The position numbers and the translations under genes were made by a program. From the NCBI GenBank assembly GCA_022563315.1, contig JADFNO010000012.1, forward strand, positions 1 through 40,344: a stretch of DNA of 40,344 nucleotides, read 5' to 3'. The DNA is from Planctomycetota bacterium. Its GTDB lineage: Bacteria; Planctomycetota; Phycisphaerae; Phycisphaerales; SM1A02. Below the pieces are notes generated by a model. It ran no database searches. It was not told the DNA's origin and saw nothing but the letters and a program-made list of their open reading frames with translations. Each line of letters opens with the position of its first letter. Within the stretch, counting starts at the first letter, position 1. Shown piece after piece: positions 1,822-39,614 of this stretch.

Positions 1822-3927
1822 ATGATGAAGCACAGCAAAAAAGTAACAAGATCGTTTGCGACCGTATTGAACCCGCTTCGTGCACGTTCAGTGCGCGGCT
1901 GCGGACACGCGCTGTCTGCCGTGGTCATGATCGGGACGGTGGTTGTTGCGGCGCAATCCGCCCCGGCCGACCAGATCTTCGCGGACTGGGAAGCCGATAT
2001 CTGTCCAGAGAGCGCCTGGACCAACCTCTTCTGCTGGGGCGCCGAGCCCATGCCCAACAACGGGAACTTTGGCGATACCTACGTCGCGGGCATCTCCGAC
2101 GGCAACGCCATCGTCACAATGAACATTGACATTACACTCGATGGAGTCGTCATCTTCCCTAGTACAACACTGAACGCGATGATCATCCAGAACAATAGAA
2201 AACTGACGATCGAGGGCGGTAACAGGGGAGGAGTCCCCACGGGTTTTATCGACATCAATGATCTGCTGGTCATGCAGTCCACGGGCAGCTTCACCGATCT
2301 CACTGTGGTCGCCGGCCCCTCCGGTTCAACGCTCATCATCGACTCGCCCATCAGCCCCGGCGAGATCAGGATGTCCAACTTCTCTGCGAACCGGATCTAC
2401 GGCGCGACCGGCAGCGAAACCATCATCTTTGGAACCGATCTGACCGTTGGCGGTTCGGGTCGTATCGGCGATGACTTGACGACGCTCATCAATGAGGGAC
2501 CCATCGTCGCAGACCAGAGCATTGAGCTACGTATCGATCCTAGTACCGCTGGAGGCATGACCAACTCGGGTCTGATGGTTGCGCGGGATGGAGGTCTGCT
2601 TTTGCTCAGACCCGGCGTGTACGACAACGCGCTGGGTGAAATCCGCGCTGAGGATGGTTCGACAGTGCGCTTTGACTCAGGCGCCCAGATCACCGGCGGC
2701 CTGATGGTCGCCCAAAGCGGCGGTCTGTTTGAGTTCAATGGCGGCACGCTTCTTGGTCCAACAGTCCGAATCGATGTCGGCGGGGTTGGACAATTCCCAT
2801 TTTTCACGACCTCCACGGTTGAGAACCTCACCAACCACGGCGTCATCAACCAGATCAACGCCGCGACACTTCACACGGCGGGCCAATTCAACAACACCGG
2901 CACCTACTTCATGAACTCGATCAACAACCCCACGGATTTGATCTTGGACAGCGACACGGTGCTGGACGGCGGAGGTGTGATCAACATGACCAACAGCAAC
3001 CAGAATCGGATATACGGCGCTACTGGTACGGAGACGTTCACCAACGTCGACAATACGATCCGTGGTTCGGGTCATATCGGCGATGACTTGACGACGCTCA
3101 TCAATGAGGGAACCATCGTCGCAGACCAGAGCATTGAGCTACGTATCGATCCTAGTACCGCTGGAGGCATGACCAACTCGGGAACGCTCCGGGCAGAGAA
3201 CGGCGCCGAGTTGCGGCTCGAGCCCGGCCCCTTCACAACTTCCGGCTTTGTGTTCGCTGCGGCGGGCGCCACCATCATTCGCGTTGCTTCGGATTACATC
3301 CAGACCGACGGCTCGACAATCGTCGATGGAGCACTCACACTCAACGCGGGTGGGACAGTCACACTCAACGGCGGCATATTGGGTGGAGATGGGCAGGTCA
3401 ACGCCCATGTCAACAACGTCGCGGGCACAGCATCGCCGGGGAGCTCGCCCGGAACGCTCACCGTTAATGGCAACTACACACAGGGCTTCGATGCCAGCCT
3501 TGCAATTGAAATCGGTGGCGTCAAGCCGGGTCAGGTCGATGTTTTGACAGTCAATCTCACTGCCACGCTGGGCGGAACGCTCGAGGTCACTTTCGTCGAC
3601 GACTTCGAACCAACCGTTGGCCAGCAGTTCACCATTCTCTCCACGGACAGTGTCGTCGGCGAGTTCGACTTCATTGACAGTTGTGCCGGCCTGAGCGTGA
3701 CGTACAACACGACCAGCGTAGTGCTGACGATCACTTCAGAGTGCCCCCTTTGCCCGGCGGACTTCGACAATAGCGGCGACGTTGGCGTGAAAGATCTGCT
3801 CTTCTTGCTCGGCGCCTGGGGGCCGTGCCCGCCGAAGGGTGATTGTCTCGCGGACTTCGACGACACCGGCGACGTTGGCGTGAAGGACCTCCTCTTCTTG
3901 CTGGGCGCCTGGGGGCCGTGCCCCTGA
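1822..3927 (+). CDS. Secreted adhesin-like repeat protein with C-terminal GC-type dockerin pair
   Basis: A 701-residue exported protein. The start ATG at 1822 follows an AAGGAG ribosome binding site. A long N-region and a hydrophobic stretch (AVVMIGTVVVAAQSAPA) form the signal peptide. The body is rich in G, N, T and S, with repeated NRIYGATG and SGxIGDDLTTLINEG motifs, as in autotransporter-like beta-helix or adhesin passengers. The C-terminus carries two dockerin-like EF-hand motifs (DFDNSGDVGVKDLLFLLGAWGPCP and DFDDTGDVGVKDL...). In this lineage such motifs are thought to anchor or sort secreted proteins; no cohesin partner is in the window. An internal 119-bp direct repeat shows that the passenger grew by duplication. 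Homology to the other dockerin gene runs past the stop codon. Confidence 0.85.
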   Translation: MMKHSKKVTRSFATVLNPLRARSVRGCGHALSAVVMIGTVVVAAQSAPADQIFADWEADICPESAWTNLFCWGAEPMPNNGNFGDTYVAGISDGNAIVTMNIDITLDGVVIFPSTTLNAMIIQNNRKLTIEGGNRGGVPTGFIDINDLLVMQSTGSFTDLTVVAGPSGSTLIIDSPISPGEIRMSNFSANRIYGATGSETIIFGTDLTVGGSGRIGDDLTTLINEGPIVADQSIELRIDPSTAGGMTNSGLMVARDGGLLLLRPGVYDNALGEIRAEDGSTVRFDSGAQITGGLMVAQSGGLFEFNGGTLLGPTVRIDVGGVGQFPFFTTSTVENLTNHGVINQINAATLHTAGQFNNTGTYFMNSINNPTDLILDSDTVLDGGGVINMTNSNQNRIYGATGTETFTNVDNTIRGSGHIGDDLTTLINEGTIVADQSIELRIDPSTAGGMTNSGTLRAENGAELRLEPGPFTTSGFVFAAAGATIIRVASDYIQTDGSTIVDGALTLNAGGTVTLNGGILGGDGQVNAHVNNVAGTASPGSSPGTLTVNGNYTQGFDASLAIEIGGVKPGQVDVLTVNLTATLGGTLEVTFVDDFEPTVGQQFTILSTDSVVGEFDFIDSCAGLSVTYNTTSVVLTITSECPLCPADFDNSGDVGVKDLLFLLGAWGPCPPKGDCLADFDDTGDVGVKDLLFLLGAWGPCP
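2452..2570 (+). repeat. Internal 119-bp direct repeat, copy 1
   Basis: This segment of the adhesin-like gene recurs at 3064-3182, an offset of exactly 612 bp (204 codons), with two mismatches that I can see (2462 G/A and 2500 C/A). The frame is preserved. Near-identity at DNA level points to a recent duplication or gene conversion and not to protein-level conservation. Confidence 0.95.
3064..3182 (+). repeat. Internal 119-bp direct repeat, copy 2
   Basis: Second copy of the 119-bp block at 2452-2570 inside the same gene. Recombination between the two would delete or add 204 codons in frame. Confidence 0.95.
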
Positions 3928-4169: not shown

Positions 4170-4925
4170 ATGAGTAAGAAAATGCTTTGGGGAGCGACAC
4201 TGCCGGGATGTTTACTCCTGGCCCTCGTTTGGGCGACGATGGCGCTGTCCGGAAACTCGCTGGCCAACCCGCCCGATGGAGACGGCAACCATAATCATGG
4301 AGGCGGTGGGGGCGGTGGGGGCGGCGGCAACCTCGCGGTGACCGTTACCTTCCAGGATCTTCCGGGCGACGGCCTGATGAGCGATTGCCACGATTGCCCA
4401 ACGACATGCGAATGTCTCTCCCCCTACATCGACGACGTGGACAACGTGGGTGCGCAGATCGATCAACAAGGAAATCTTGCTTTTGGGATCGGCAAGGCCA
4501 AGCGCAATCAACTGGCGATCCGTACGTTGTTCTTCGATTTCAGCGACTGCGCTTCTGCTGATCCGGCCGACTGCACCCCGCCGTTCTTCGACGATGGTGG
4601 TCTCGGTTCCGGTTTGACAAACGTGCTTATGTTCACAGCTGGTGTTGACCTGAGAGCCATGGCCGTGGGCGAGGTCAGCGAGGAGTTGAGCCTGTATGGG
4701 ACGTTTGATCCGAGTGAAGTGAGCCAAGCACTGCGCTTCTTCTTCGACCCCTCGGACGACAGTTGCCCGGGCAGCACCACCATTACCGTGAGGCATACTG
4801 GTCCTGATACTTGGGAGATCGAAGCGGGGCCCGACGACGTCGCCTGTCTAAGAGAAGGCGGGCATGACTCTATACAAAGGGGGCTATACCACATGCCGTT
4901 CAAATTTACGGTGCAGACGAAATAG
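4170..4925 (+). CDS. Secreted hypothetical protein, paralog A of a tandem pair
   Basis: A 251-residue protein of unknown function. The start ATG at 4170 follows AAAGGAG. The signal peptide is MSKKMLWGATLPGC followed by LLLALVWATMALSGNSLA. Next come a His/Gly-rich linker (HNHGG then a ten-glycine run) and a folded domain of about 190 residues with paired cysteines (CHDC, CEC, later single Cys) that suggest disulfides outside the cytoplasm. It ends in GLYHMPFKFTV. The downstream gene is a close paralog with the same leader, cysteine pattern and ending. The glycine tract (GGCGGTGGGGGCGGTGGGGG) is prone to slippage. No known family was recognised. Confidence 0.8.
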   Translation: MSKKMLWGATLPGCLLLALVWATMALSGNSLANPPDGDGNHNHGGGGGGGGGGNLAVTVTFQDLPGDGLMSDCHDCPTTCECLSPYIDDVDNVGAQIDQQGNLAFGIGKAKRNQLAIRTLFFDFSDCASADPADCTPPFFDDGGLGSGLTNVLMFTAGVDLRAMAVGEVSEELSLYGTFDPSEVSQALRFFFDPSDDSCPGSTTITVRHTGPDTWEIEAGPDDVACLREGGHDSIQRGLYHMPFKFTVQTK

Positions 4926-4989
4926 AACTAGGCCGCCCCGAGCGGCTGGGCTCAGCATGATGCGAACAACTTTACAAAGGAGATTCTTG

Positions 4990-5727
4990 ATGAGTAAGAA
5001 AATGCTTTGGGGAGCGACACTACCGGGATGTGTAGTCCTGGCCCTCGTCTGGGCAACGATGGCACTTTCCGGGGGCGCCCTGGCCGACCCACCGCCCCAT
5101 AATCATGGCGGCGGCGACGACGGTGGCGGTGGCGGCGGCACGATCGCGATGACCGCTACTTTCCAGAATCGTCCGGGGGACGGCCTGATGAGCGATTGCC
5201 ACGATTGCCAAACGACATGCGACTGCCTGCCCCCCTACATCGACAAAGTGGACAAGGTGGGCGCGGGCATCAGTACCCGAGGAAACTTTCGCCTGACGCT
5301 GACCAAGGGCAATCAGCCGGCAATCCGGACGCTGTTCTATGATTTCAGCGACTGCGTTTCTCCGGGCGAGTGCACCCCGCCTTTCCAGAATGGTTTCTCA
5401 GTCGGGCCGGCGAACGTAGTCACATCCGGCTCCGGTATCGACCTGCTCGAGATGCTCGTGGGCGCGGTCCGGGACGATTTGCGCCTGATCATGTCGCTCA
5501 ATCTTGACAGTGTAGAGAACGGCTTGTGGCAAATCCGCTTCGACCCGTCGAACGCGAATTGCTCTGGCAGCACCTTTGTTACCGTAGAACGAATCAGCGC
5601 CGATACCTGGGAGATCGAAGCGGGACCCGAGGACGTTGCCTGTCTGACGAAGCAAGCAGGCGGAGGCGAACATATATTCAGCGGGCTATACCACATGCCG
5701 TTCAAGTTTACGATCAACTTCAAGTAG
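4990..5727 (+). CDS. Secreted hypothetical protein, paralog B of a tandem pair
   Basis: A 245-residue paralog of the gene before it. The frame is open further upstream, but the ATG at 4990 is chosen: it follows AAAGGAGATTCTTG, and the protein then begins MSKKMLWGATLPGC exactly like its neighbour. The leader, a HNHGGG linker (shorter and interrupted by Asp), the CHDC...CDC cysteines and the YHMPFKFT ending are all conserved, while the middle has diverged. The nucleotide match starts upstream of the ribosome binding site, so the duplicated unit includes the translation signals. A strong terminator follows 42 nt after the stop. Function unknown; probably extracellular. Confidence 0.82.
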   Translation: MSKKMLWGATLPGCVVLALVWATMALSGGALADPPPHNHGGGDDGGGGGGTIAMTATFQNRPGDGLMSDCHDCQTTCDCLPPYIDKVDKVGAGISTRGNFRLTLTKGNQPAIRTLFYDFSDCVSPGECTPPFQNGFSVGPANVVTSGSGIDLLEMLVGAVRDDLRLIMSLNLDSVENGLWQIRFDPSNANCSGSTFVTVERISADTWEIEAGPEDVACLTKQAGGGEHIFSGLYHMPFKFTINFK

Positions 5728-5818: not shown

Positions 5819-6652
5819 TCAGCCGCCGAAATCACACCACGGCTGACCCCACTCTTCGATACTGATGATTTCGACGTTCCCCTTGGCGTCGGTCTCGATG
5901 ACGTAGACGCGGTGACAATCGCAGCCGTCGAAACAATCCTTCCAGCCGTCGTCGATATCCCACAGCCACACGCCGTCCTTCATCGGCGTCAGCTCCCAGA
6001 AGTTCTGCCCGCCGATCCACCAATTTGGTTCGGCAACCAGCACCGACGCTGCCTCCGTGTAAATGATCGACAGCGCAGGAATGTTCAGATCGTCCGCGAA
6101 CGTCAGCACATACCAGTTCGAGAACAAGTTAGATTCATCCGTCACTTGATAGAACTCATTGAGGCAAAGGTAATCCTGCTGCGGGTCACCTTTCTCACGC
6201 TGTACGATCATCTGGTTGGCAACCCAAGCCGGTGAATGTGTTTGATCGAGAAGCCGTTTGTCCGCAACACGAATCAACGCCTGGTCGGTGATGATGCGTT
6301 CGTAGTCTGCGAGCTCAGGACGGAGCGGTCCGGACGACCCCAACATCTCCAATGCGATCTGTTCCGCCTCCGCGTTGTCCAGCGTAGGACCGAAGTCGAA
6401 AACGGTCGGCCCCCAACCGCCCAGGAGCACGAGCAGGTCTTTCACGCCGACGCTGCCGTCTCCGTCAAAATCCGCTGGACAGTCCGGGCACGGCCCCCAA
6501 GCGCCCAGAAGGTTGAGCAGATCTTTCACCCCCACGGCGCCGTCATCGTCCAGATCGGCGTTGCACGGCGGCGCAGCATGGGTCGAGAACGAAAGGGCAA
6601 GGCTCACGCCAACCGCCAAGGCAGCGGCCGGGGCTTGTCGGGAAATCTTCAT
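5819..6652 (-). CDS. Secreted protein with N-terminal GC-type dockerin pair
   Basis: A 277-residue exported protein. The frame extends upstream, but the ATG at 6652 is chosen because AGGAG lies just before it and a signal peptide follows (MKISRQAPAAALAVGVSLAL...THA). Two dockerin-like motifs come straight after the leader (about residues 30-52 and 57-80: DLDDDGAVGVKDLLNLLGAWGPCP and DFDGDGSVGVKDLLVLLGGWGP). About 195 residues of an unrecognised domain follow, with ALEMLGSSG, a WWIGGQNFWEL stretch and a Cys-containing DGCDCHRVYVIETDAKG segment. Dockerins usually sit at the C-terminus, as in the other two dockerin proteins here, so the order is inverted. It may be a substrate or metal-binding exported protein; I do not assign a function. 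Confidence 0.8.
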   Translation of the reverse strand: MKISRQAPAAALAVGVSLALSFSTHAAPPCNADLDDDGAVGVKDLLNLLGAWGPCPDCPADFDGDGSVGVKDLLVLLGGWGPTVFDFGPTLDNAEAEQIALEMLGSSGPLRPELADYERIITDQALIRVADKRLLDQTHSPAWVANQMIVQREKGDPQQDYLCLNEFYQVTDESNLFSNWYVLTFADDLNIPALSIIYTEAASVLVAEPNWWIGGQNFWELTPMKDGVWLWDIDDGWKDCFDGCDCHRVYVIETDAKGNVEIISIEEWGQPWCDFGG

Positions 6653-6843
6653 GATGAATCTCCTATTCTCTACGCTGGGGTCGTCGGGCCGACCCAACCA
6701 TATCACCTTGATTCGCCCGCCGCCAGAGGGAGTCAAGAACATTGGAATTCCTTTGGATGATCCCCTGATGAGGGTTGTGGGGGCTGGTAGCAGGCAATAA
6801 CCGGCGGCGACTTTGCGCGCACGAGAAAATCGGCGAATAGGGA

Positions 6844-7772: not shown

Positions 7773-9527
7773 CTAGCCGTACGTTTCCTTCAGCCTGTTG
7801 AATCCAGATTTCATTAAATCAAACTTGGCAGCGGACCTAGCAAACGTCCTCAGCGTCATAGGCTCGGTCGCACTTTCATTACGCTGCCATTCTGAGCAGA
7901 TTACAAACAAACTAGCTTTCCAGCACTTATCCCAATACTTCTCAAAGTTCCTGTCATTATTTAGCAGGCTCGATCTGTCATCATCGCTAAGTTCCGCGCG
8001 CACCGACTCACCGATCAATGACAAGATATGATACCGCAACTGATTCAGATAGTTTGCGCCATCGTTGTTGGATAGGTACTCCTTAATGGACTTTTGTGTT
8101 CTCCAGAAAAACGCGATACCGAGACGCGCCCTATGCAATTCCGCCTCGGGAAGTAGAATCTCTAGCTTACCGTTCACACCAAAGGCCTTCTCGTAAGCGC
8201 CCTCGGAATGATCAACCTTGCTCGTGAACAGGTCCTTCGGAGAATTAATAACTAGCGTAGGCTCGTACTCGAACGCGTATCTAATCTTCGCAAATTCATC
8301 GAGCCTCAGGATACGACTTCCTGATTTTGTGCGGGCGCCTGTGCCCCTGCGCCTGTGATACTCGATCAACGGTAAATGATCACGACCTCGTTTTGGAGAC
8401 AGATTCTTCTCCAACCACTCCTGAATCTGATCATTAGCCCGAAAATCGGATATACGTATTGCATTCTTTGTGTTGTTGAAACGAATTATCTTTTCATTGA
8501 TGCCCCTGATTTGTGTTTTACGGGACGATTCGGTAATCCGCATCAATACGTAAATTTCAGCTTCTGATTTCGCGTCCACTATCGCCCCGACCGTCTGGGC
8601 GCCGTTAATGATATAAAAATTCTCTGCACGAAGGATGTGTTCCGAGTCGACTTCTAGGGAAGTACATACGCACGAGATACCATTGTTAAAGTAGAAGAAG
8701 TTTTCGGGTTCCTCCTCGATGGTGGTGACGATGTCCTTGTTGATGGAAGTGCGCCGACCTAACCAATCTCGAATATTCAATGCGAACAACCGTTCGCGTA
8801 CGCCTTTCTTTTCGTATAGATTGCGAAGCCAATTGCCCTTTATTGCACAGACTAGTGTCTTTCGCGGCTTGGATCGTATAAAATACGTATCCTTAGGTAG
8901 AGGTTGCTCAATATCGATGCCGACAGTACCTTCTAGCGACTGAGTCCTGACAAAGAACTCCCGCAGTTCATGAATACCAAGTGTCGTGCAGGTGACTGAT
9001 TCGCCGGCTGCCCCAAAATCACGATTACGTTTCTCGGTTAATTCTGAGATACGTTCGGTCAGCTTTCCCGTGGACACGAAGAAGTACGAAACAGCGTATC
9101 CATCATCAATTCGACTCTTGTAATCACCGAGTAGATTCACCGCTTTCTGCGATCCATGCTTTCGCACCCAATCGTGCTCACAATAATACCTATGTCTGTC
9201 GAAGAATGAAGCGACCTGAGTTTCGTCCATTGGCTTTGAATGCGAAACCAATGTTAACAGCTTCGACTGAACAATAATAAGCCGTTTCTGAATCGCGTCG
9301 TCAAGCACAATGTCGGCGCCCAGATCAGTGCCTTCAATAATCGCTTCGTCCGGCTCCGTGTCAACGCCTTGATAGGCTTGCTGAAAAAGTGACGCCAGCC
9401 AAAGCTGAAATGCCGTTCCACGATACTTGCCTACGGAGTACGACCATGCACGTTCATCACAAAGCTCCTCCACCTGAGCCTTGAGATACTTGCGGAAAGT
9501 GTCGGTTGACATCCCTTCATTGAGCAT
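7773..9527 (-). CDS. AIPR-family abortive phage infection protein
   Basis: A 584-residue protein of the AIPR (abortive infection phage resistance) family. Hallmarks are FFYFNNGIS (about residues 277-285), IINGAQTVGAI (306-316), VLMRITE, and IIRFNNTKNAIRISDFRANDQIQ (347 on). The N-terminal 150 residues contain a GADIVLDD...LIIVQSK arrangement (D72, then Q87-S88-K89), which fits a PD-(D/E)XK-like nuclease core, so the protein may cut nucleic acid on infection. The ATG at 9527 is preceded by GAGG. Its DNA is visibly more A/T-rich than the neighbours, which supports horizontal acquisition. It starts 33 nt after the stop of an icd-tail relic, and a DNA methyltransferase gene lies upstream on the same strand. 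Family assignment is firm; the nuclease activity is inferred. Confidence 0.9.
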   Translation of the reverse strand: MLNEGMSTDTFRKYLKAQVEELCDERAWSYSVGKYRGTAFQLWLASLFQQAYQGVDTEPDEAIIEGTDLGADIVLDDAIQKRLIIVQSKLLTLVSHSKPMDETQVASFFDRHRYYCEHDWVRKHGSQKAVNLLGDYKSRIDDGYAVSYFFVSTGKLTERISELTEKRNRDFGAAGESVTCTTLGIHELREFFVRTQSLEGTVGIDIEQPLPKDTYFIRSKPRKTLVCAIKGNWLRNLYEKKGVRERLFALNIRDWLGRRTSINKDIVTTIEEEPENFFYFNNGISCVCTSLEVDSEHILRAENFYIINGAQTVGAIVDAKSEAEIYVLMRITESSRKTQIRGINEKIIRFNNTKNAIRISDFRANDQIQEWLEKNLSPKRGRDHLPLIEYHRRRGTGARTKSGSRILRLDEFAKIRYAFEYEPTLVINSPKDLFTSKVDHSEGAYEKAFGVNGKLEILLPEAELHRARLGIAFFWRTQKSIKEYLSNNDGANYLNQLRYHILSLIGESVRAELSDDDRSSLLNNDRNFEKYWDKCWKASLFVICSEWQRNESATEPMTLRTFARSAAKFDLMKSGFNRLKETYG

Positions 9528-9560
9528 CTACATCCTCATTTCAGCGTTAGCGCTACAAGG

Positions 9561-9618
9561 TCACGCCCCGACCGCTACCCCTGCCCCCATATGTTCGATG
9601 ATGGCGTCGGCGAAGGCG
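9561..9618 (-). pseudogene. Relic of the icd 3' end (tail A)
   Basis: Read leftward, this encodes [18 protein letters not shown] and TGA, identical to the last 18 residues of the intact isocitrate dehydrogenase at 17808-17865. The two blocks align without gaps over 58 bp with 50 identities. All eight differences are at third codon positions and none changes the protein. Similarity stops abruptly at both ends: before it the codons read Phe-Pro-Ser-like in place of Cys-Ser, and after the stop there is no match. This is what an att-type 3' gene segment carried by an integrating element from another species would look like. Confidence 0.92.
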
Positions 9619-9640
9619 AACGGCGACTGCGACGCGCTTG

Positions 9641-10660
9641 TCAAGAGATTTCTTGTTTCGTTTGGTCATCTCGCAAGACGTTCAGTGTTCTTTGAGAGAA
9701 CATATTTGCGGTTTCCTCGGCGAAACGCCTGCACGAGCTCTCGAAGTACACAGCGTCAGTCTCAACACCGATGCTGTTGCGGCCGGATTGAGCTGCCGCG
9801 ACCGAACTTGATCCCGTGCCATGAAACGGATCAAGAACGGTATCGCCAACAAAGCTGAACATCCGGATGAGTCTGTGTGCAATCTCGACTGGATAGGGCG
9901 CGGGATGATTCCTTGTAGAGGCGCCTGTCAATCCAGTCCAAATCTGCTGGAACCATCGCTGATGGTCATTGACCGAGATTACACTCAGGATTCGCTTTGC
10001 CGAGGAAGGCTTGCGGTATCCACCCGGCTTGCGTTGCATCAGAATGAATTCGATATCGTTCTTGATCACCGCATTGGGTTCGTAGGGCTTCCCGAGAAAA
10101 CCGCCGGCCCCCTGCACTTCATACGTGGCGTTTGCGATCTTGTGCCAGATGATCGGGGCGAGATTATCAAAGCCGATGTGCCGGCAATGTTCCTGAATTG
10201 AAGCGTGTAGCGGAACGACGACGTGCCGTCCGTTGTTGTTCCGCCTGGATAGACACACATCGCCGACCACGCAGACGAGTCGCCCGCCGGGCACAAGTGC
10301 GCGAAAACAGTGCTGCCACACGCGATCCAGCTCCTCCAGAAACTGCTCGTAGTCCTGGACGAATCCAAGTTGGTCTTCGCTGCGCCGATACTCCTTGAGC
10401 GTCCAATATGGCGGGGACGTAACGACGAGGTGAACCGACTCCGGTTCAAGGAAATCCATCAATCGAGCATCGCCGAGTCGATAGTCATGGCGGGTTGGAA
10501 TCGAACCGATCGCTGCCTCGATAACAGATGTCAATCGCGTATCCTTGGCGATCCGCGGCAGATCCCGTTGCAGATTGGGCAAACTCCGAAGTTCCGCAGG
10601 AACGAACCTACAAAGATCGCAAGCCTCTGACGAGAAAGCTTGTTCGGGTTCTGTCAGCAT
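9641..10660 (-). CDS. DNA methyltransferase, N4-cytosine/N6-adenine type (beta order)
   Basis: A 339-residue SAM-dependent DNA methyltransferase of the N6_N4_Mtase group. Catalytic motif IV TSPPYW (residues 81-86) precedes the SAM-binding motif I DPFHGTGSSSVAA (277-289), the beta-class order. SPPY in place of DPPY favours N4-cytosine methylation. VPGGRLVCVVGD and NHPAPYPVEIAHRLI are further family motifs. The frame is open upstream, but the ATG at 10660 is chosen since everything before it reads through the BlaI promoter region. It may be a solitary methyltransferase or the modification half of a restriction system with the AIPR gene 113 nt downstream. The icd-tail relic between them argues that the pairing arose by recombination. 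The divergent BlaI promoter lies about 100 nt upstream. Confidence 0.9.
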   Translation of the reverse strand: MLTEPEQAFSSEACDLCRFVPAELRSLPNLQRDLPRIAKDTRLTSVIEAAIGSIPTRHDYRLGDARLMDFLEPESVHLVVTSPPYWTLKEYRRSEDQLGFVQDYEQFLEELDRVWQHCFRALVPGGRLVCVVGDVCLSRRNNNGRHVVVPLHASIQEHCRHIGFDNLAPIIWHKIANATYEVQGAGGFLGKPYEPNAVIKNDIEFILMQRKPGGYRKPSSAKRILSVISVNDHQRWFQQIWTGLTGASTRNHPAPYPVEIAHRLIRMFSFVGDTVLDPFHGTGSSSVAAAQSGRNSIGVETDAVYFESSCRRFAEETANMFSQRTLNVLRDDQTKQEIS

Positions 10661-10758: not shown

Positions 10759-10786
10759 TTGACAGGAGCCCGGGGTGATATACTAT
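10759..10786 (+). promoter_or_regulatory. Promoter of the blaI-M56-DUF1573 genes
   Basis: TTGACA (10759-10764) and TACTAT (10781-10786) with a 16-nt spacer form a near-consensus housekeeping promoter. The -10 box is the left half of a perfect palindrome. The predicted start near 10793 leaves about 48 nt of leader to the TTG start at 10841. Confidence 0.7.
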
Positions 10787-10796
10787 GGCCATAGTA
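10781..10796. promoter_or_regulatory. Palindromic operator, probable BlaI-like repressor site
   Basis: TACTATGGCCATAGTA is a perfect 16-bp inverted repeat overlapping the -10 box, just upstream of a BlaI/MecI-type repressor gene. BlaI-family operators are short dyads with TAC...GTA ends, so this is the natural candidate for autorepression. Binding is inferred. Confidence 0.75.
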
Positions 10797-10840
10797 CTAC
10801 GGTTGCTGTAGATAACTGCCCCTACCCCGGAGAACTGGCT

Positions 10841-11242
10841 TTGGTCACGCGAAAGCTCTTTGATGAACTGGGAAGCCTTCAGCGAGCGGTGATGGAGGTG
10901 GTTTGGGACAAGGGCCAGGCCAGCGTCAGCGACGTGCGGCGGGCGCTGGGGCGATCCAAGCGGCCGGCGTATACGACCGTCCTGACGGTGCTGCAAAAGC
11001 TCGAAAAGGCCGGTTGGGTGAAACACCGCAGCGAAGGCCGAACGTATATCTACTCAGCCAAGCGATCGCGCGAGGATGAGGGCGCTAAATCGCTCAAAGG
11101 CTACGTCGATCGTGTGTTTAGGGGTGATCCGTTGGTGTTGTTTGAGCACCTGATGGATGACGATCGGCTGGATGATGAAACCCTCGCCACGCTGCGCAAG
11201 ATGATCGACAACAAGCGACGGGAGCGAGAAGCGAATGTATGA
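10841..11242 (+). CDS. BlaI/MecI-family transcriptional repressor
   Basis: A winged-helix repressor of 133 residues when started at the TTG at 10841, which has GGAG seven nt upstream. An ATG at 10775 would lie inside the promoter and is rejected. The family signature is clear: LGSLQRAVMEVVWDKGQASVSDVRRAL, then AYTTVLTVLQKLEKAGWVKHRSEGRTYIYSA, with a C-terminal dimerisation and cleavage helix region. Members repress their own operon and are inactivated by the partner M56 peptidase. The gene overlaps the M56 gene by 8 nt, so the two are translationally coupled. The palindrome over the -10 box is its likely target. The inducing signal is unknown; a beta-lactam response should not be assumed, because no beta-lactamase is nearby. 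Confidence 0.9.
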   Translation: MVTRKLFDELGSLQRAVMEVVWDKGQASVSDVRRALGRSKRPAYTTVLTVLQKLEKAGWVKHRSEGRTYIYSAKRSREDEGAKSLKGYVDRVFRGDPLVLFEHLMDDDRLDDETLATLRKMIDNKRREREANV

Positions 11243-12626
11243 CACGCTTTTAGACGGCTCGTTGATCGTTGATGCGCTGTGGCAACCGACGCTGTGCTTA
11301 TTGATCGCAGGTGTTGTGGCAGCGTTGCTGGCGAGACAACCAGCCCGCGCGCATCATGCTGTGCTGCTCCTATTGGGGGCGGCGGTGGTGACGCCGATGG
11401 TCAGTGCGGCATTTCGCGCGATTGGATGGGGGTTGATCGCACCACCAAGTCATACGATACCTGAGTCGACCCCATCGAATCAGATCCCAGCCCTGTCAAT
11501 GAATTACCTGGCCAGCGCGTTCACGTGGGAACGGTTGTTTGGGGTGATATGGATTGTCCTGTCGATCGTCGTCATCGCGCGACTCGTGCAATCGATTCGA
11601 AGCAGCAGGCGACTGCTTCGTGATTCTCGCCCGCTTGATGATCCGAGGATCAACGCACTAGCCAACCAAGCAGCGCGGAAGCTCGGTTTACGGTGCACGC
11701 CTACGGTGCGCGTGAGCGACTCCATCGCCTGCCCCGTCGTATGGTGCTGGTCCAAACAGCCGGTGATATTGCTGCCGCAAGGGATGGCGGATGCGTCTGA
11801 TGCCAAGGCGCTTGCGGGCATTTTGTGCCATGAACTGGCGCATTGGAAGCGGCGTGATCACGTGTCGGTGTTTGTGAGTGAGCTTTTGGCGTGCGCCATG
11901 CCGTGGCATCCGATGGTGTGGTGGACCAAACGCCGCATGGCGCAGCTCAGCGAGCGAGCGTGTGATCAATGGGTGTTGGCGACCGGTCAATCGCCGACGG
12001 TGTTCGCTGAATCGCTGCTCAATCTTGCGCCGCAACGAGGCAATCGTCTGGCGCTGGCTGCGGTAACGAACAAGCACGGCTTGGTGCGGCGCATTCACCA
12101 CATCCTCGATGGTTCGGAGAGGCGCCGTCCTCACACGAGTGGCGCGTGGCTCGCACTGTTTATTGGGATCGCGATGTTGCTGTCAACGACGGCGGCGCTT
12201 GCGCATCGACGCGTGCAGGTCGTGACGTCGAACGTTGGCGCCCCGGCCGGTGAGAATATGGCGATCGGCGATCAACTCGCACCGACTGATAAGGATTCGC
12301 CGTTCATTGTGCGCGTCACGCCGGCTGAGCTTGATCTAGGGATCGGCGAAGCGGGCAAGCCCAAAGCTGGCAAGCTGTGGCTGATCAACACGGGCTCGAC
12401 GCCGATGCAAATTGAACGCGCCAAGGTCGCCTGCGGGTGCACGACGATCACTCGATTCCAGATCGGCCCCCTCGCGCCGGGCGCATCAATGCTTGTTGAA
12501 CTTACGATGACCGCTCCCGAAAGACCGGGCGAACGAAAGACCAAGGACGTGACGTTCTTTATCCAAGGGCAACCGCCGCTGAAAGTTCCGATCCATCTCG
12601 AAGCCGGTCGCTTCGATACAGAGTAG
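11235..12626 (+). CDS. M56 (BlaR1-type) membrane peptidase fused to DUF1573
   Basis: A 463-residue integral membrane metallopeptidase. Membrane segments lie near residues 9-32, 43-68, 101-121 and 304-322. The zinc motif HELAH is at 199-203, with a later ERACD (Glu about 241) as the likely third ligand. In BlaR1/MecR1 the peptidase signals induction by causing cleavage of the BlaI repressor. Here the extracytoplasmic part is not a penicillin-binding sensor but a DUF1573 domain (about 355-455) with ACGCTT at 399-404. The next gene also encodes a DUF1573 protein, so the sensed state probably concerns whatever DUF1573 binds. The start ATG lies inside the end of the repressor gene. The domains are certain; the signal is unknown. 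Confidence 0.88.
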   Translation: MYDTLLDGSLIVDALWQPTLCLLIAGVVAALLARQPARAHHAVLLLLGAAVVTPMVSAAFRAIGWGLIAPPSHTIPESTPSNQIPALSMNYLASAFTWERLFGVIWIVLSIVVIARLVQSIRSSRRLLRDSRPLDDPRINALANQAARKLGLRCTPTVRVSDSIACPVVWCWSKQPVILLPQGMADASDAKALAGILCHELAHWKRRDHVSVFVSELLACAMPWHPMVWWTKRRMAQLSERACDQWVLATGQSPTVFAESLLNLAPQRGNRLALAAVTNKHGLVRRIHHILDGSERRRPHTSGAWLALFIGIAMLLSTTAALAHRRVQVVTSNVGAPAGENMAIGDQLAPTDKDSPFIVRVTPAELDLGIGEAGKPKAGKLWLINTGSTPMQIERAKVACGCTTITRFQIGPLAPGASMLVELTMTAPERPGERKTKDVTFFIQGQPPLKVPIHLEAGRFDTE

Positions 12627-12708
12627 TTTTTCTCGCGCATCGAATGTCCAACCGCACAGCAACGTTGCTGTGTACACGATGTCGGTGCGCCCACAAGGAG
12701 ATCAACCC

Positions 12709-13686
12709 ATGCGAAGAATCACAACAATCACACCAACCACAGCGTTCAAATGCTCTTTTGTATATCTGCTGGCAATGTGCATCTCGTTGCTCACAATACC
12801 AACAGCGATTGGGAGCGGCGGCGACGCTGAGGGAGCCATACTCGTTCCGAACGTGTTGGACTTCGGCAAATGCGCTGCTGGGGATACCGCGGCGGGAACG
12901 ATGTGGATCATCAACACAAGTGATGCGCCGATCACCGTGATCGGCGCCAAGGGAAGCTGCGGCTGCACGACGATCGTTGATTTCGTATCCGAGACGCTTG
13001 AACCGCGTCAAGCCAAGGAACTTCACATCCGCATGAAGGCTTCGAGTAAGCATTTGGATCAACAGGTAACGAAGAAAGTGACGGTAACGTTGGCGGATGG
13101 GCCGCCGGTAGAAGCGCAGCTGCAGATTGAATCGATTCATCCGCTGTATGCGAAGTTGCTCGGTTATCGAGAAGCGCGGAAGGCGCATGCTACGCAGCGG
13201 ATCGCAGGTTACCTGGCTGAGGAGTCGCGGATTTGGTTTGACAAGAAAGAAGGGCCGGGCGCACTGCGTAAACCATCAGGCGATGGACCATGGGCGGAGT
13301 GGGACCGCGAAATGAAATCAACCAGCACGACCCATGCGTATGAAGTGAACGGCAACGAACTGGTGACGGTCGTGAGCGAGACGAACGATTACTTCAAGCT
13401 GCTTGATCGTAAGCCCACGCCGTATCTGCTTACATACTGGTTTGATGACGAGGAGCGGATTGAGGGGATGTTGGTTTCGAGCTTGCCCAAGGAGCCGAAG
13501 AACAAGGGGCGGAACGACCAGTTCAAGAAATGGGCTGATGAGCACCACCCGGGGGTTCTCGATGAGTTGCAACCCGACGGCCGAATTATTCCGAGCAAGG
13601 AAAACGCGATCCGCTGGCGGGAACTGTTGATCGAGTGGCGTCAGGATGTCGGGTTGCCTGAGGTGAACTTAGGCAGCGCTGAGTGA
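12709..13686 (+). CDS. Exported DUF1573 protein with C-terminal NTF2-like region
   Basis: A 325-residue protein. The ATG at 12709 follows AAGGAG (12695-12700), which decides the start. A signal peptide (FVYLLAMCISLLTIPTAIG) precedes a DUF1573 Ig-like domain with LDFGKCAAGDTAAGTMWIINTS and SCGCTTIV. The C-terminal half looks NTF2/SnoaL-like (NDYFKLLDRK, YWFDDEERIEGMLV, FKKWADEHHPGVLDELQPDG, RWRELLIEW), a fold that often binds small molecules. It is the third gene of the BlaI/M56 set, 82 nt after the M56 stop, and shares the DUF1573 domain with the sensor. It may be the regulated output or a competitor ligand. The molecular function is unknown. Confidence 0.8.
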   Translation: MRRITTITPTTAFKCSFVYLLAMCISLLTIPTAIGSGGDAEGAILVPNVLDFGKCAAGDTAAGTMWIINTSDAPITVIGAKGSCGCTTIVDFVSETLEPRQAKELHIRMKASSKHLDQQVTKKVTVTLADGPPVEAQLQIESIHPLYAKLLGYREARKAHATQRIAGYLAEESRIWFDKKEGPGALRKPSGDGPWAEWDREMKSTSTTHAYEVNGNELVTVVSETNDYFKLLDRKPTPYLLTYWFDDEERIEGMLVSSLPKEPKNKGRNDQFKKWADEHHPGVLDELQPDGRIIPSKENAIRWRELLIEWRQDVGLPEVNLGSAE

Positions 13687-13708: not shown

Positions 13709-13751
13709 CCCAGGGACTCCCGCTCGAATCGGGACAGGGTCCGTCCCTGGG
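13709..13751. terminator. Bidirectional terminator-like hairpin between convergent genes
   Basis: CCCAGGGAC (13709-13717) pairs with GTCCCTGGG (13743-13751) around a loop that contains the dispersed CCCG...CGGG palindrome. It sits between the DUF1573 gene and the convergent oligopeptidase gene. The T-run after it is poor, so termination may be partial. Confidence 0.55.
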
Positions 13752-13763
13752 CTTTGCTTGATG

Positions 13764-35078: not shown

Positions 35079-36692
35079 TCAGGAATCGGAGTCGTCAGCC
35101 GCCTTTTCGCTCGATGGGGGCTGAGCCTCGAGCATCTTGATGATCTCAACCGATGGGGCGTCGCTGCGCTTCTGGCGAGCCAGGTCGAGTGAGGTCTGCC
35201 CCTGCTTATTGGTAGCGGTGACGTCCGCGCCCGCGTCGAGCAGCACCTTGACCGTAGCCGGCGCTCCGTACCGTGCGGCCCACATCAGCGGAGTCATTCC
35301 GGTATTGTCCACCTGATTGACGTCTGCGTTCCCTGCGACCAGAGCGGCAACGATCTCGGGATTACTGAATGGTCCAGCCGCCCAGCTCAAAGGCGTTCCG
35401 CCGATCATTGTACCACGCGTGTTGACGTCAGCTCCCTTGGCGATGAGGGCTCGCACCACCTCGACGGAACTGTCGCGCGTCTGCACAGCCGCCAGAAGCG
35501 GCATGCGCCCCTTCTGATCGCGCGCTTCGATCTTCGCGCCTGCTTCAAGCAGCATACGAACGACCTCAGCCTGCTTGGCGCGAGCTGCGATTCCGAGCAA
35601 CGTAGCGCCGTCTTGATCCGCTTGCTCAAGGTTCTTGCCGTCCTTGATGGCCTGGCCGATGGTCGCAACGTCGCCGCTCCTCGCGGCTGCCGCCAATGGG
35701 CTATCAACCGTCGCCGCGGATGGTCGGGCCGTCGCGATGCGTGAAGTGTTGCCCGGAGTGGTGCGCGCCCGCACAAGCGTCACGCTTACCTTGTTCGCTT
35801 GCGGATGATCGATCGTGAAGTCGATCTTGCGGGCCCGCGACTGCGCTTGCAAGTCGTCCAAGGGCAGGTACAGCACGTGCTCGGTACGAGCCTCGTCATC
35901 AAACGCCTCGATCCACGGCGGATTCATGCTCAGAACTCTAAACGGCTGGTCATCCAGGGATCGGATCACCACGCGGCCGTCGGTCGTCTGCCGCAGGTCG
36001 ATCTTGCTCGGCTCGACCTCAACGTAGGCGACGACGTCCACGAACACCGGCACGCGCAACACCGGCTGACCCTCGACGATGAAGTCCACGCGCTTGGATT
36101 GGCGGCGCCCGCCGATCAGCCCGGCCTTCATTTGAACCTGGACCTCAACGGACTCGCCCGGCTGGAGTTCCCTGTTCTTGGGGCAGTTGGTCGTCGTGCA
36201 CCCACAGTTGGCTTTGCAGTTGATGATCCGCATCGGCCGATCGCCGGTGTTGACCAGCCGGATGATCCCCGTCGCCTGCTGGCCGGTCCCGACGGTCCCC
36301 ATGTCAAGCGAGATCGGCTCGGCGATGACGATCAGCTCGGTCGAATCACCAGACACCGCCGGCTTCGCCAACCGCGTCGGCCTCGTCGTGGCAACCTCGA
36401 GAGTGGTGTCCTGCCGCGCCGCCACCAAATTGGGCTGCACGGTGCGTTTCCGATCGACCAATGAGTCGGTAAGCGTCGCGCGGAACGACGGCGGGGCGCT
36501 CTGGATCTCCGTTTGATCCCCAGTCGCGTTGGACTGGTCGCCCACCGGGGTGGCCGAGGACGAGCCCGTCCCATCACCGGCGGTGTTCGTCGATCCTTCC
36601 GCTCCGCTGTCCGAGCAGCCGGCCAATCCGAGCAGCAACACACAGGACAAGGCCGCGATACTGCGAGTCAAGTTCGTAAGCTTCGTAAGCAT
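35079..36692 (-). CDS. DUF1573-ankyrin lipoprotein
   Basis: A 537-residue protein. The ATG at 36692 has GGGAG upstream and begins a lipoprotein signal (Cys26 in LLLGLAGC). A low-complexity Ser/Thr/Gly region follows, then a DUF1573 domain (about 125-220, LDMGTVGTGQQATGIIRLVNTG, NCGCTTTNC), a second Ig-like region (about 220-310), and five or six ankyrin repeats (about 330-522, DGATLLGIAARAKQAEVVRMLLEAGA, GMTPLMWAARYGAPATVKVLLDAGADV). Ankyrin repeats mediate protein contacts, so this is likely an envelope adaptor. Its DUF1573 resembles those in the BlaI/M56 set, 23 kb away. Function unknown. Confidence 0.88.
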   Translation of the reverse strand: MLTKLTNLTRSIAALSCVLLLGLAGCSDSGAEGSTNTAGDGTGSSSATPVGDQSNATGDQTEIQSAPPSFRATLTDSLVDRKRTVQPNLVAARQDTTLEVATTRPTRLAKPAVSGDSTELIVIAEPISLDMGTVGTGQQATGIIRLVNTGDRPMRIINCKANCGCTTTNCPKNRELQPGESVEVQVQMKAGLIGGRRQSKRVDFIVEGQPVLRVPVFVDVVAYVEVEPSKIDLRQTTDGRVVIRSLDDQPFRVLSMNPPWIEAFDDEARTEHVLYLPLDDLQAQSRARKIDFTIDHPQANKVSVTLVRARTTPGNTSRIATARPSAATVDSPLAAAARSGDVATIGQAIKDGKNLEQADQDGATLLGIAARAKQAEVVRMLLEAGAKIEARDQKGRMPLLAAVQTRDSSVEVVRALIAKGADVNTRGTMIGGTPLSWAAGPFSNPEIVAALVAGNADVNQVDNTGMTPLMWAARYGAPATVKVLLDAGADVTATNKQGQTSLDLARQKRSDAPSVEIIKMLEAQPPSSEKAADDSDS

Positions 36693-36901
36693 GGCATCTC
36701 CCACCGCTTTCTTTGTTCGATCCGCCTTGAATTGATCCAGATCTTCAAATCCATCACCCGCACCAGCCGACCCGGCACGATCCGGATAGGCGTCCCCAGC
36801 TGAGAACGGGCTCCCTCCATGGGAAGCACATTCTAACCAATACATAGCACGTACGGGCATATTCGCCAGAAATCTCTCCCAGGATCCCCCAAATAGGTCT
36901 C

Positions 36902-37369
36902 GTGAAGAGCACAGCAGTGAGTTATCTTCTCTGGATTCTCGGCGGATTTGGGGTTCTAGGACTCCATCGCTTCTACCTGGGGCGCTGGGTGACCGGCCTG
37001 ATTTGGCTCCTGACCGGGGGTCTGCTGGGCATTGGGGCCATAATCGACCTCTTCGTGATCCCTCCCATGGTCCAGGTCGAGAACCTGTCCCGGCAACTGC
37101 TGAGCCAGGCTCAGGGGAAGAAACCACAGATGGACACGGATGGACAGAGAGAGGTGGAAAGAGAGAGTGTCAGGAGTTCGGAGACCCCAATCCTCAGGCC
37201 TCAAGCCTCAAGCCTTCCTTCGCCACAGATGAACACAGATAGAACCGGGAAGCCGGACCTGAGGCTTTGCGAAGGTCCGGGTGGCGGTGAAGAAGGCACG
37301 GGCGTACGGAGCAGCGAGCTCCCGATTCCACCGGCTCTCATTCCCCTCTCCCCCCGGGAGAGGGGTTAG
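36902..37369 (+). CDS. TM2-domain membrane protein with read-through tail
   Basis: The first 75 residues are a TM2 domain: two membrane helices with the family motif GGFGVLGLHRFYLGRWVTGLIWLLTGGLLGIGAIIDLFVIP. The GTG at 36902 is the start. After about residue 73 (SQAQGKKPQ) the frame runs into intergenic repeats: the CCACAGATGGACACGG and CCACAGATGAACACAG elements, CCTCAAG repeats, and a CTCTCC...GGAGAGGGG hairpin. The last 80 residues are therefore unlikely to be an evolved domain. The original stop seems to have been lost to a repeat insertion. Function of TM2 proteins in bacteria is not settled. Divergent from the ankyrin lipoprotein. Confidence 0.75.
   Translation: MKSTAVSYLLWILGGFGVLGLHRFYLGRWVTGLIWLLTGGLLGIGAIIDLFVIPPMVQVENLSRQLLSQAQGKKPQMDTDGQREVERESVRSSETPILRPQASSLPSPQMNTDRTGKPDLRLCEGPGGGEEGTGVRSSELPIPPALIPLSPRERG
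37124..37242. repeat. Dispersed CCACAGATG-type intergenic repeats
   Basis: Two copies of a short element (CCACAGATGGACACGGATGG at 37124-37143 and CCACAGATGAACACAGATAG at 37223-37242) flank a CCTCAAG-rich stretch. The same kind of element is familiar from intergenic regions of planctomycete-like genomes. Here it lies inside the read-through end of the TM2 frame. Confidence 0.7.
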
Positions 37370-37727
37370 GGGTGAGGGTCTGCTCCGCTCTGCTCTGCTC
37401 GCGGTCGCCCCGGTTCACGTGACGGATCCCGATCCCGATGGAATCGGGACGGCTCGCGGGGGTGGCCACGCTCCCGGCTCCTGAACACAGTGCGGGAGCA
37501 TTTCTTTTCGGATGGCTCCACTGCGAAGTGAGGCTCTTGCCATCCTTGGCCTCCCTGTGCAGGTCAATCGGGGCTTGTATCTCACAAATGCCGCTTGGAT
37601 ACAGCCCCCCTGTGATACACTGTTCTCGACCGGCTGCACGGGGGCACCTGTCTTCGGGGCAGTCATCCCGATTGAATCGGGACGACGGGCACCACCGTGC
37701 GGCCACTTTGCCAGGCGGAGGCCAACG
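37370..37727. other. Gene-free stretch before the beta-helix dockerin gene
   Basis: The dockerin frame is open back to 37512, but the extra N-terminal residues look non-coding. The stretch holds a palindrome of the GAATCGGG family at 37426-37450 and another at 37664-37683, and presumably the promoter of the next gene. Confidence 0.5.
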
Positions 37728-39614
37728 ATGGTACATCGTCAGTTATTCAAGAATCGTGCGGTCTGCGCATGCGCGTCGATGATCGCGATGTTCGTGATCT
37801 CAGTCGCAGCTCACGGGGAGGGTGTTCTGTACGTCGATGATGACGCTCCGCAAGGCGGCGACGGAACGACCTGGGGTACGGCGTACCGATTCCTTCAGGA
37901 CGCGTTGGCCGATGCGTCCGGCGGCGGTGTCACAGAGGTCCGTGTCGGGCAAGGCACCTACAAGCCCGACCGCGACGAAGCGAATCCAAGTGGTACCGGC
38001 GACCGTGAGGTCGCATTCCAACTGCTCGACGGTGTCGCGCTCATGGGTAGCTATGCGGGGATCGGTGCGGATGATCCTGATGTTCGCGATTTCGAATTGT
38101 ACGAGACGATTCTCAGCGGTGATCTTGCTGGGGACGATGGGCCGGGATTCGAAGGGAACCTTGAGAATAGCCACAACGTGGTTCGAGTGGCCAACCTTCG
38201 GGTAGGCGCGATCGTCTCGCTCGATGGATTCATAATTAAAGGGGGGAACGCAGCAGACGCCCCGTCACCGATCTGGTCAGGTGGCGCGGTGTATATCCTC
38301 TTTTCGGATTTCGTTTCTCAATTCTCGCTTGCCAATTGTACTTTCATTGACAACGTCGCAAAGCAGGGCGGGGCTGTCTTCGCTTACCGCGGCGTTGGTG
38401 AAATTGCAGATTGCGCATTCGTACACAACGCCGCCACAGAACCTGGCGGTGCCCTCCATCTCTTGAATGGAACGGCTTGCCTGTGGAGTACTCGCTTCGA
38501 GATGAATGAGGCTTTTGAGCAAGGCGGCGGTGTGGCTGTATCTAGTCCTTCGGGTGATACTTGCGTGATAGACTGCCACTTTCTCTACAACACGGCTCAC
38601 TGGGATGGCGGTGGACTTTTCGTTGACTTCTCGGGTGGCAACCGTCTGCTATCGGTCTCGGGCTGTAGCTTCATCGGCAACGCAGCGATTCTAGGACAAG
38701 TTGGGGCAGACGGCGGTGGGCTATTCTCTGATGATGTACGTGTGGAGTTGTCAGACACGCTCTTCCTTGAGAACTTTTCTGCTGTGCACGCGGGAGGAGC
38801 GATGATCGATTCGGACGTTGAATCGCTCATCGTCAACTGCACTTTCCTAGGTAACACGGCAGGTTACGATGGCGGTGGACTCCAACTCTTGGGAGGCAGC
38901 CCAAAGACAATCGTAAATAGTCTGTTCCTCGGGAACGTCGCCTTTCGTGACGGTGGTGGGATTTTCAATCCGGTCTCGGGGGGCGGTGACGCTGGCCGCC
39001 GGTTCGCCAATTGCACGGTCGCAGGCAACACGGCGGGTGGGGTGGGAGGAGGAATCCTCGCGGGCGATACGGACAACGTGATTGAGAATTGCGTTGTTTG
39101 GGGCAACTCGGATATCAACGGACAAGGACAGGAATCCCAAGTTACTTTCTCCAATTGGCCATTTCCGGTCAACTACTCATGTATCCAAGGCTGGAACGGA
39201 ACTTACGACGGCGTTGGCAGTCACGGGAATGATCCGCTCTTCATCGATCCTGACAACGGCGACTATCGCCTTTCATCTGGCTCGCCGTGTATTGATGCGG
39301 CGGACAACAGCGCCGTGCCGAAGGGTATCGATACCGATCTCGACGGCAATCTGCGGTTTGTTGACGATCCAGACACCAAGGACACCGGCTTCGGCGATCC
39401 GCCGATCGTCGATATGGGCGCATACGAGTTCCAAGTTGTATCGTCCTGCCCCTGGGACCTCGACGACGACGGCGACGTTGGCGTGAAGGATTTGCTCATC
39501 TTGCTGGGCGCCTGGGGACCGTGCAAAGGCTGCCCCGCGGACTTCGACGACAGCGGCGACGTTGGCGTTAAGGATCTGCTCATCTTGCTGGGCAACTGGG
39601 GGCCGTGTCCTTGA
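37728..39614 (+). CDS. Secreted right-handed beta-helix protein with C-terminal GC-type dockerins
   Basis: A 628-residue exported protein. The ATG at 37728 has GGAG upstream and is followed by a signal peptide (CACASMIAMFVISVAAHG). VLYVDDDAP...GTTWGTAYRFLQDALADA is the usual start of planctomycete parallel beta-helix proteins. The body has repeated GGA/GGG-x-N turns (NCTFIDNVAKQGGAVF, CSFIGNAAILG, NCTVAGNTAGGVGGGI), the polymorphic-outer-membrane-protein-like pattern, then SPCIDAADNSAVP...DMGAYEF, a typical end of such domains. Two dockerin motifs close it (DLDDDGDVGVKDLLILLGAWGPC, DFDDSGDVGVKDLLILLGNWGPCP). It probably binds or cleaves polysaccharide at the surface, but no catalytic residues can be named. 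Confidence 0.88.
   Translation: MVHRQLFKNRAVCACASMIAMFVISVAAHGEGVLYVDDDAPQGGDGTTWGTAYRFLQDALADASGGGVTEVRVGQGTYKPDRDEANPSGTGDREVAFQLLDGVALMGSYAGIGADDPDVRDFELYETILSGDLAGDDGPGFEGNLENSHNVVRVANLRVGAIVSLDGFIIKGGNAADAPSPIWSGGAVYILFSDFVSQFSLANCTFIDNVAKQGGAVFAYRGVGEIADCAFVHNAATEPGGALHLLNGTACLWSTRFEMNEAFEQGGGVAVSSPSGDTCVIDCHFLYNTAHWDGGGLFVDFSGGNRLLSVSGCSFIGNAAILGQVGADGGGLFSDDVRVELSDTLFLENFSAVHAGGAMIDSDVESLIVNCTFLGNTAGYDGGGLQLLGGSPKTIVNSLFLGNVAFRDGGGIFNPVSGGGDAGRRFANCTVAGNTAGGVGGGILAGDTDNVIENCVVWGNSDINGQGQESQVTFSNWPFPVNYSCIQGWNGTYDGVGSHGNDPLFIDPDNGDYRLSSGSPCIDAADNSAVPKGIDTDLDGNLRFVDDPDTKDTGFGDPPIVDMGAYEFQVVSSCPWDLDDDGDVGVKDLLILLGAWGPCKGCPADFDDSGDVGVKDLLILLGNWGPCP

Follow-up and report, generated by a model that had tools for sequence, protein, structure and literature searches.

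A predicted BlaI/BlaR1-like circuit of a planctomycete in which DUF1573 replaces the beta-lactam sensor

Introduction

Pairs of BlaI and M56 genes are usually taken as beta-lactam resistance systems. In the closest described cases, BlaI/BlaR1 and MecI/MecR1, a repressor gene overlaps the gene of an M56 gluzincin peptidase (HEXXH...E) with a predicted four-helix layout and a C-terminal outer domain, and an inverted repeat lies at the pair's own promoter. These traits recur, the four-helix layout as a prediction, in a three-gene operon at positions 10759-13686 (+ strand) of a planctomycete stretch of DNA of 40,344 nucleotides, hereafter the window. The outer domain, in contrast, is a class-D beta-lactamase-like sensor in BlaR1 and MecR1 and DUF1573 here, the operator here reads TACTAT...ATAGTA and does not have the TACA/TGTA core, and the third gene encodes a DUF1573 protein and no beta-lactamase.

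The CopY/CopR copper repressors belong to the same superfamily and likewise have 16-bp operators with symmetric half-sites (PMC7253601), but CopY itself senses metal through a C-terminal C-x-C, whereas the repressor described here is paired with a membrane protease. With DUF1573 (PF07610) and HYDIN-like Ig domains in general the locus shares the domain and its CGC motif, and it differs from them in the fusion to M56 and the tie to a BlaI operator. Among open-licence papers none was found that links DUF1573 with BlaR1, or M56 plus BlaI with planctomycetes, nor one that describes the M56-DUF1573 fusion or its tie to a BlaI operator.

Results

The operon encodes a BlaI-type repressor, an M56-DUF1573 peptidase and a second DUF1573 protein. 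The repressor gene (10841..11242, +, 133 aa) matches Penicillinase_R (PF03965, 1e-27) with 97 bits against a curated Pfam cut-off of 22.6. Its start was set by comparison with orthologs, which fit a TTG at 10841 with GGAG at 10829-10832 and led to a GTG at 10775 being dropped. The start of the peptidase gene (11235..12626, +, 463 aa) overlaps the blaI stop with eight shared bases, and 82 bases separate it from the third gene (12709..13686, +, 325 aa). A terminator-like stem-loop 3' of the operon (13735..13756, +) is a weak call, as seven such sites were found against 2.8 expected. In operon order, dN/dS against the closest homologous operon (genome G001) is 0.16, 0.19, and 0.30, which indicates purifying selection on all three genes. 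Directly upstream on the opposite strand (7773-10660) lies the gene of an AIPR/AbiU-like protein beside an N6/N4 DNA methyltransferase gene, possibly a phage-defence pair. The window also encodes several secreted proteins whose repeats resemble DFDDSGDVGVKDLLxLLGAWGPCP and look dockerin- or EF-hand-like by eye (1822-3927; 5819-6742, - strand; 37512-39614), and two similar adjoining secreted proteins (4170-5727; MSKKMLWGATLPGC...), a relative of which is also found near the operon of genome G014 (L040).

The peptidase domain (PF05569, 1.2e-27) spans residues 22-290 and scores 97 bits against a cut-off of 31. The zinc site HELAH (residues 199-203; 11829..11843, +), which aligns to BlaR1 chains 8exs/8exp, and the partner motif E240xxxD244 (11952-11966, +) are invariant in six aligned homologs, and H199, E200, H203, E240, D244, D208, and R286 are all kept and align with the catalytic residues of S. 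aureus BlaR1 (PMC9834060). Four strong hydrophobic segments and one marginal one (210-228) are present, and the charge pattern fits BlaR1 topology, so that the protein is predicted, from a model of middling quality, to have four transmembrane helices, both termini outside and a periplasmic DUF1573 domain. A Foldseek search with the whole model returned S. aureus BlaR1 (8exq) as its top match; the AlphaFold models have a mean pLDDT of 69 for this protein and 67 for the third protein, with shallow alignments.

DUF1573 occupies residues 364-446 of the fusion (PF07610, 9e-10; 12324..12572, +) and scores 38.9 bits against a cut-off of 26.1. The first-pass annotation had described an M56 protein ending in DUF1573 with an ACGCTT motif and followed by a second DUF1573 protein, and both statements hold: the motif lies at residues 399-404 (CGC at 12432-12440), its CGC being typical of DUF1573 generally, and the next gene product carries the domain at residues 49-131 (4.9e-10, 39.7 bits; 12853-13125, +; CGC at 12958-12966). 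A penicillin-binding or transpeptidase domain had no Pfam match in the fusion protein, whose C-terminal part matched only DUF1573/HYDIN-like models, SXXK is absent after the last transmembrane helix (residues 324-463), and the protein reaches 66.1 of the 400 bits set as the NCBIfam blaR1_generic cut-off. Because the defining domain is absent and this cut-off is missed, the protein is not a beta-lactam sensor. The matches to PF03965, PF05569, and PF07610 nevertheless support the proposal that the circuit is BlaR1-like and that DUF1573 takes the place of its sensor.

The N-terminus of the third protein is hydrophobic and signal-like, which suggests that the protein is probably exported; DUF1573 comes next, and then a C-terminal alpha+beta domain (13126-13683, +). 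Pfam searches of this last domain up to an E-value of 10 gave nothing credible and a PDB sequence search gave no match. An NTF2/SnoaL-like identity was set aside, as it was a likeness seen by eye that no search supported, and the fold search spanned almost only the DUF1573 part. An origin of the partner by gene duplication inside the locus is likewise unsupported; within a locus, the DUF1573 domains of the M56 protein and the partner are not each other's closest relatives. The same C-terminal domain was also matched in three off-operon ORFs (L145, L146, and L147; G033:C6, G105:C142, and G023:C275), the G105 copy being a 221-aa likely lipoprotein, and a gene of genome G023 (L076, 466-1524) combines DUF1573 with this domain about 2 kb upstream of blaI.

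The search for fusions covered 60 relatives, 181 genomes from the family, an evenly drawn sample of 392 genomes from the phylum and a contig collection. Seven distinct M56-DUF1573 fusions were found: that of the window and those of G001, G014, G399 (which belongs to another family), G026, L077, and G023, with M56 identities to the window of 95, 54, 41, 39, 38, and 36%, respectively. G102 is a likely eighth case, its contig stopping before the C-terminus. With only seven distinct cases across the genomes searched, five among the 181 family genomes and a further one in the evenly drawn sample, the fusion is rare and patchy. The expectation that DUF1573 would be fused to M56 in relatives was thus borne out wherever the M56 lineage of the window is intact, but not as a general trait of related genomes. 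A DUF1573 gene lies directly downstream on the same strand in 7/7 fusions against 0/47 other M56 genes for which the sequence reached far enough downstream, a count that is not to be read as a probability because descent is shared. In the window, G001, G014, and G399 the neighbour combines a single DUF1573 with another domain, whereas it carries DUF1573 twice in G023, G026, and L077. Gene order, fusion and partner pairing thus recur on comparison, and the presence of the partner in every fusion suggests that the circuit probably governs how much of the partner protein is made.

The promoter region was compared among these operons. A -35 element TTGACA (10759..10764, +) is followed after 16 nt by TACTAT (10781-10786), which doubles as the -10 box and is the left half of a perfect 16-bp palindrome, TACTATGGCCATAGTA (10781..10796, no strand assigned). 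Of the near-consensus promoter claimed earlier, the hexamers, their spacing and the overlap with the palindrome stand, while the -10 box fits the consensus at only 4/6 positions and the promoter taken alone is not above chance (one found against 1.2 expected in a consensus scan). Support for it therefore rests on conservation: TTGAC lies 16 nt before TACTAT in G001, G014, and G023 (G399 has TTGCGG instead), and an alignment shows TTGAC, TACTATG and TAGTACTAC conserved with the remainder diverged. None of 100 shuffles of the window yielded a site within three mismatches of the palindrome. The exact 16-mer is found in the window, G001, and G014, while G023, G399, L077, and G102 have a 17-bp form, TACTAT-N5-GTAGTA, and the operators of distant members are looser and mostly 17 bp long (TACTAY-N4/5-RTAGTA). 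Since distant members carry the looser form, the flawless palindrome is the variant that one lineage has of an operator common to the clade. The operator expected in orthologs is thus present, exactly in two of them and in degenerate form in more distant ones, and its perfection is a trait of the nearest lineage only. A possible second, weaker operator overlaps the first (10795..10813, no strand assigned; TACTAC at 10795-10800 and GTAGAT at 10808-10813); TACTAC or TACTT with GTAG further downstream recurs in most promoters compared, and the site may have a similar function. The other BlaI-M56 pair of the same genome has a different arrangement, with TGTAGTA repeats. By comparison, the inverted repeat conserved in position at the blaI promoter is the predicted binding site of BlaI, and a conserved candidate operator at the operon's own promoter agrees with the self-regulation suggested earlier.

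The fusion might also be a chance joining of domains in a silent or decaying circuit that does not signal. Its rare and patchy distribution would fit this, as would the damaged copy in G026, where blaI and the M56 gene of one operon (L041; G026:C419) each contain an in-frame TAG, which means that the system can decay or that the assembly is in error. Such a joining is very improbable given purifying selection, intact catalytic residues, an operator that is exact at 54% protein identity and the pairing with a partner in 7/7 fusions.

A genome scan had been proposed as a way to find a wider regulon, and it revealed none. The palindrome is unique: elsewhere in the 3.76-Mb draft genome of the window no further copy was found within three mismatches, against six matches of a reversed control pattern. 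Operators in gaps would be missed, because the draft consists of 298 contigs, and BlaI might bind at sites beyond the pattern used. The genomes of G001 and G023 showed no second operator either, and a wider regulon was consequently rejected. G399 has one more 17-mer before an amidohydrolase gene and G014 one near ApbE-like and SUMF-like genes (assigned by eye), but with eight and 36 hits of the reversed pattern, respectively, these sites are leads only. The G399 site (L156; G399:C44:186096) consists of TACTATCATTCGTAGTA and a further imperfect repeat just 5' of the amidohydrolase-like gene, which the repressor of G399 might control as a distal target. Because its own genome shows no further operator, the most likely output of the circuit is the operon itself and hence the third protein.

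In a tree of 97 M56 cores, all seven fusions fall inside one 17-member clade (SH-aLRT 89), and the fusion may have arisen once or more than once. A sub-clade contains sister planctomycete BlaI-M56 pairs (L078 and L080-L086) that share the M56 clade with the fusions but differ in their outer domains, which are AhpC/TSA, LRR, ankyrin or CarboxypepD-like, and in that no DUF1573 neighbour was found. The blaI promoters compared covered all of these pairs but L085, and the same operator type occurs 5' of blaI in L078, L080-L084, L086, and G219. In L078, L080 and others, TTGACA lies only two bases before the operator, which would place the operator between the -35 and a TACTTT -10 box. The clade thus appears to be a repressor/protease chassis with swappable outer domains and a retained operator type. 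A third DUF1573 protein of the window (35079-37127, - strand) is fused to ankyrin repeats, and the outer domains of the L083 and L085 M56 proteins are also ankyrin.

What the outer DUF1573 may respond to was considered in view of its cysteines and its fold. A redox switch, in which a Cys-x-Cys disulfide made, lost or exchanged with the partner DUF1573 toggles the protease, would fit the cysteine pair, which is invariant across the fused domains aligned and kept as C-x-C in the partners. Selenocysteine forms of DUF1573 listed in reviews, where UGC replaces CGC (PMC9312934, PMC13188914), and weak hits to the NCBIfam OS_HP2 (seleno)protein model point the same way. However, CGC is the general motif of DUF1573 and is also present in DUF1573 proteins that have no M56 tie, so the motif is no proof of redox sensing here, and redox is no clear theme of the clade, because the AhpC/TSA domains of the L078 and L080 proteins have no CxxC in the segment read. 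The switch is thus rather unlikely. The same cysteines could bind a metal, for example copper, which cytoplasmic CopY repressors bind through their C-x-C (PMC7253601); CopY_TcrY is the best NCBIfam model for the repressor, although the 55 bits reached fall short of the cut-off of 122, and DUF1573 resembles a Cu-bound PCuAC domain in its fold. Yet metal sensing is quite unlikely, as the operon has no metal transporter or chaperone, the CopY C-x-C sits in the repressor and not in a periplasmic domain, and the fold likeness is common to many PapD-like domains.

Fold searches with the DUF1573 part of the fusion returned PapD/ASH/HYDIN domains, and the DUF1573 models resemble Ig-type domains of the PapD, MSP, and ASH/HYDIN kinds, among which several are binders of peptides or strands. 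The domain could accordingly be an envelope or protein-folding sensor that binds an exposed strand, a peptide or another envelope ligand for which the partner competes or which it delivers, and the sporadic C-terminal domain of the partner, also seen as a likely lipoprotein, would suit such a role. A fold does not show function, though, and this account is possible but doubtful.

Discussion

The reading I favour, with somewhat better than even confidence, is a self-repressed proteolytic signalling operon on a BlaI/BlaR1 chassis whose outer DUF1573 monitors its partner or a shared ligand. A BlaI dimer on the palindrome over the -10 box would keep the operon low. The M56 protein would span the membrane with four helices, placing the zinc protease on the cytoplasmic side and DUF1573 on the outer side, and the exported product of the third gene would act in the same compartment. 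Gene pairing suggests contact between the two DUF1573 proteins, and the outer domain may monitor the partner or the shared ligand through such contact or through its Cys-x-Cys state. A change in this signal would activate the protease, BlaI would be cut and the operon induced. The partner would then be made until the signal ends, giving a homeostatic loop in which a shortage or an alteration of the partner leads the protease to lift BlaI repression.

A more specific version can be put forward tentatively: the circuit might read a periplasmic DUF1573, through either its thiol state or its occupancy, and reset it by making a second DUF1573 protein, which would give DUF1573 its first signal-receptor role, with an outer domain freely swapped on a constant repressor and operator. 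As judged from sequence, the operon works like BlaI/BlaR1 without being a beta-lactam sensor. Since the same repressor, protease and operator join several outer domains, an annotation of planctomycete BlaI-M56 genes as antibiotic sensors should be avoided, and DUF1573, a domain of unknown function, would gain a concrete genetic setting as receptor and partner in one autoregulated operon.
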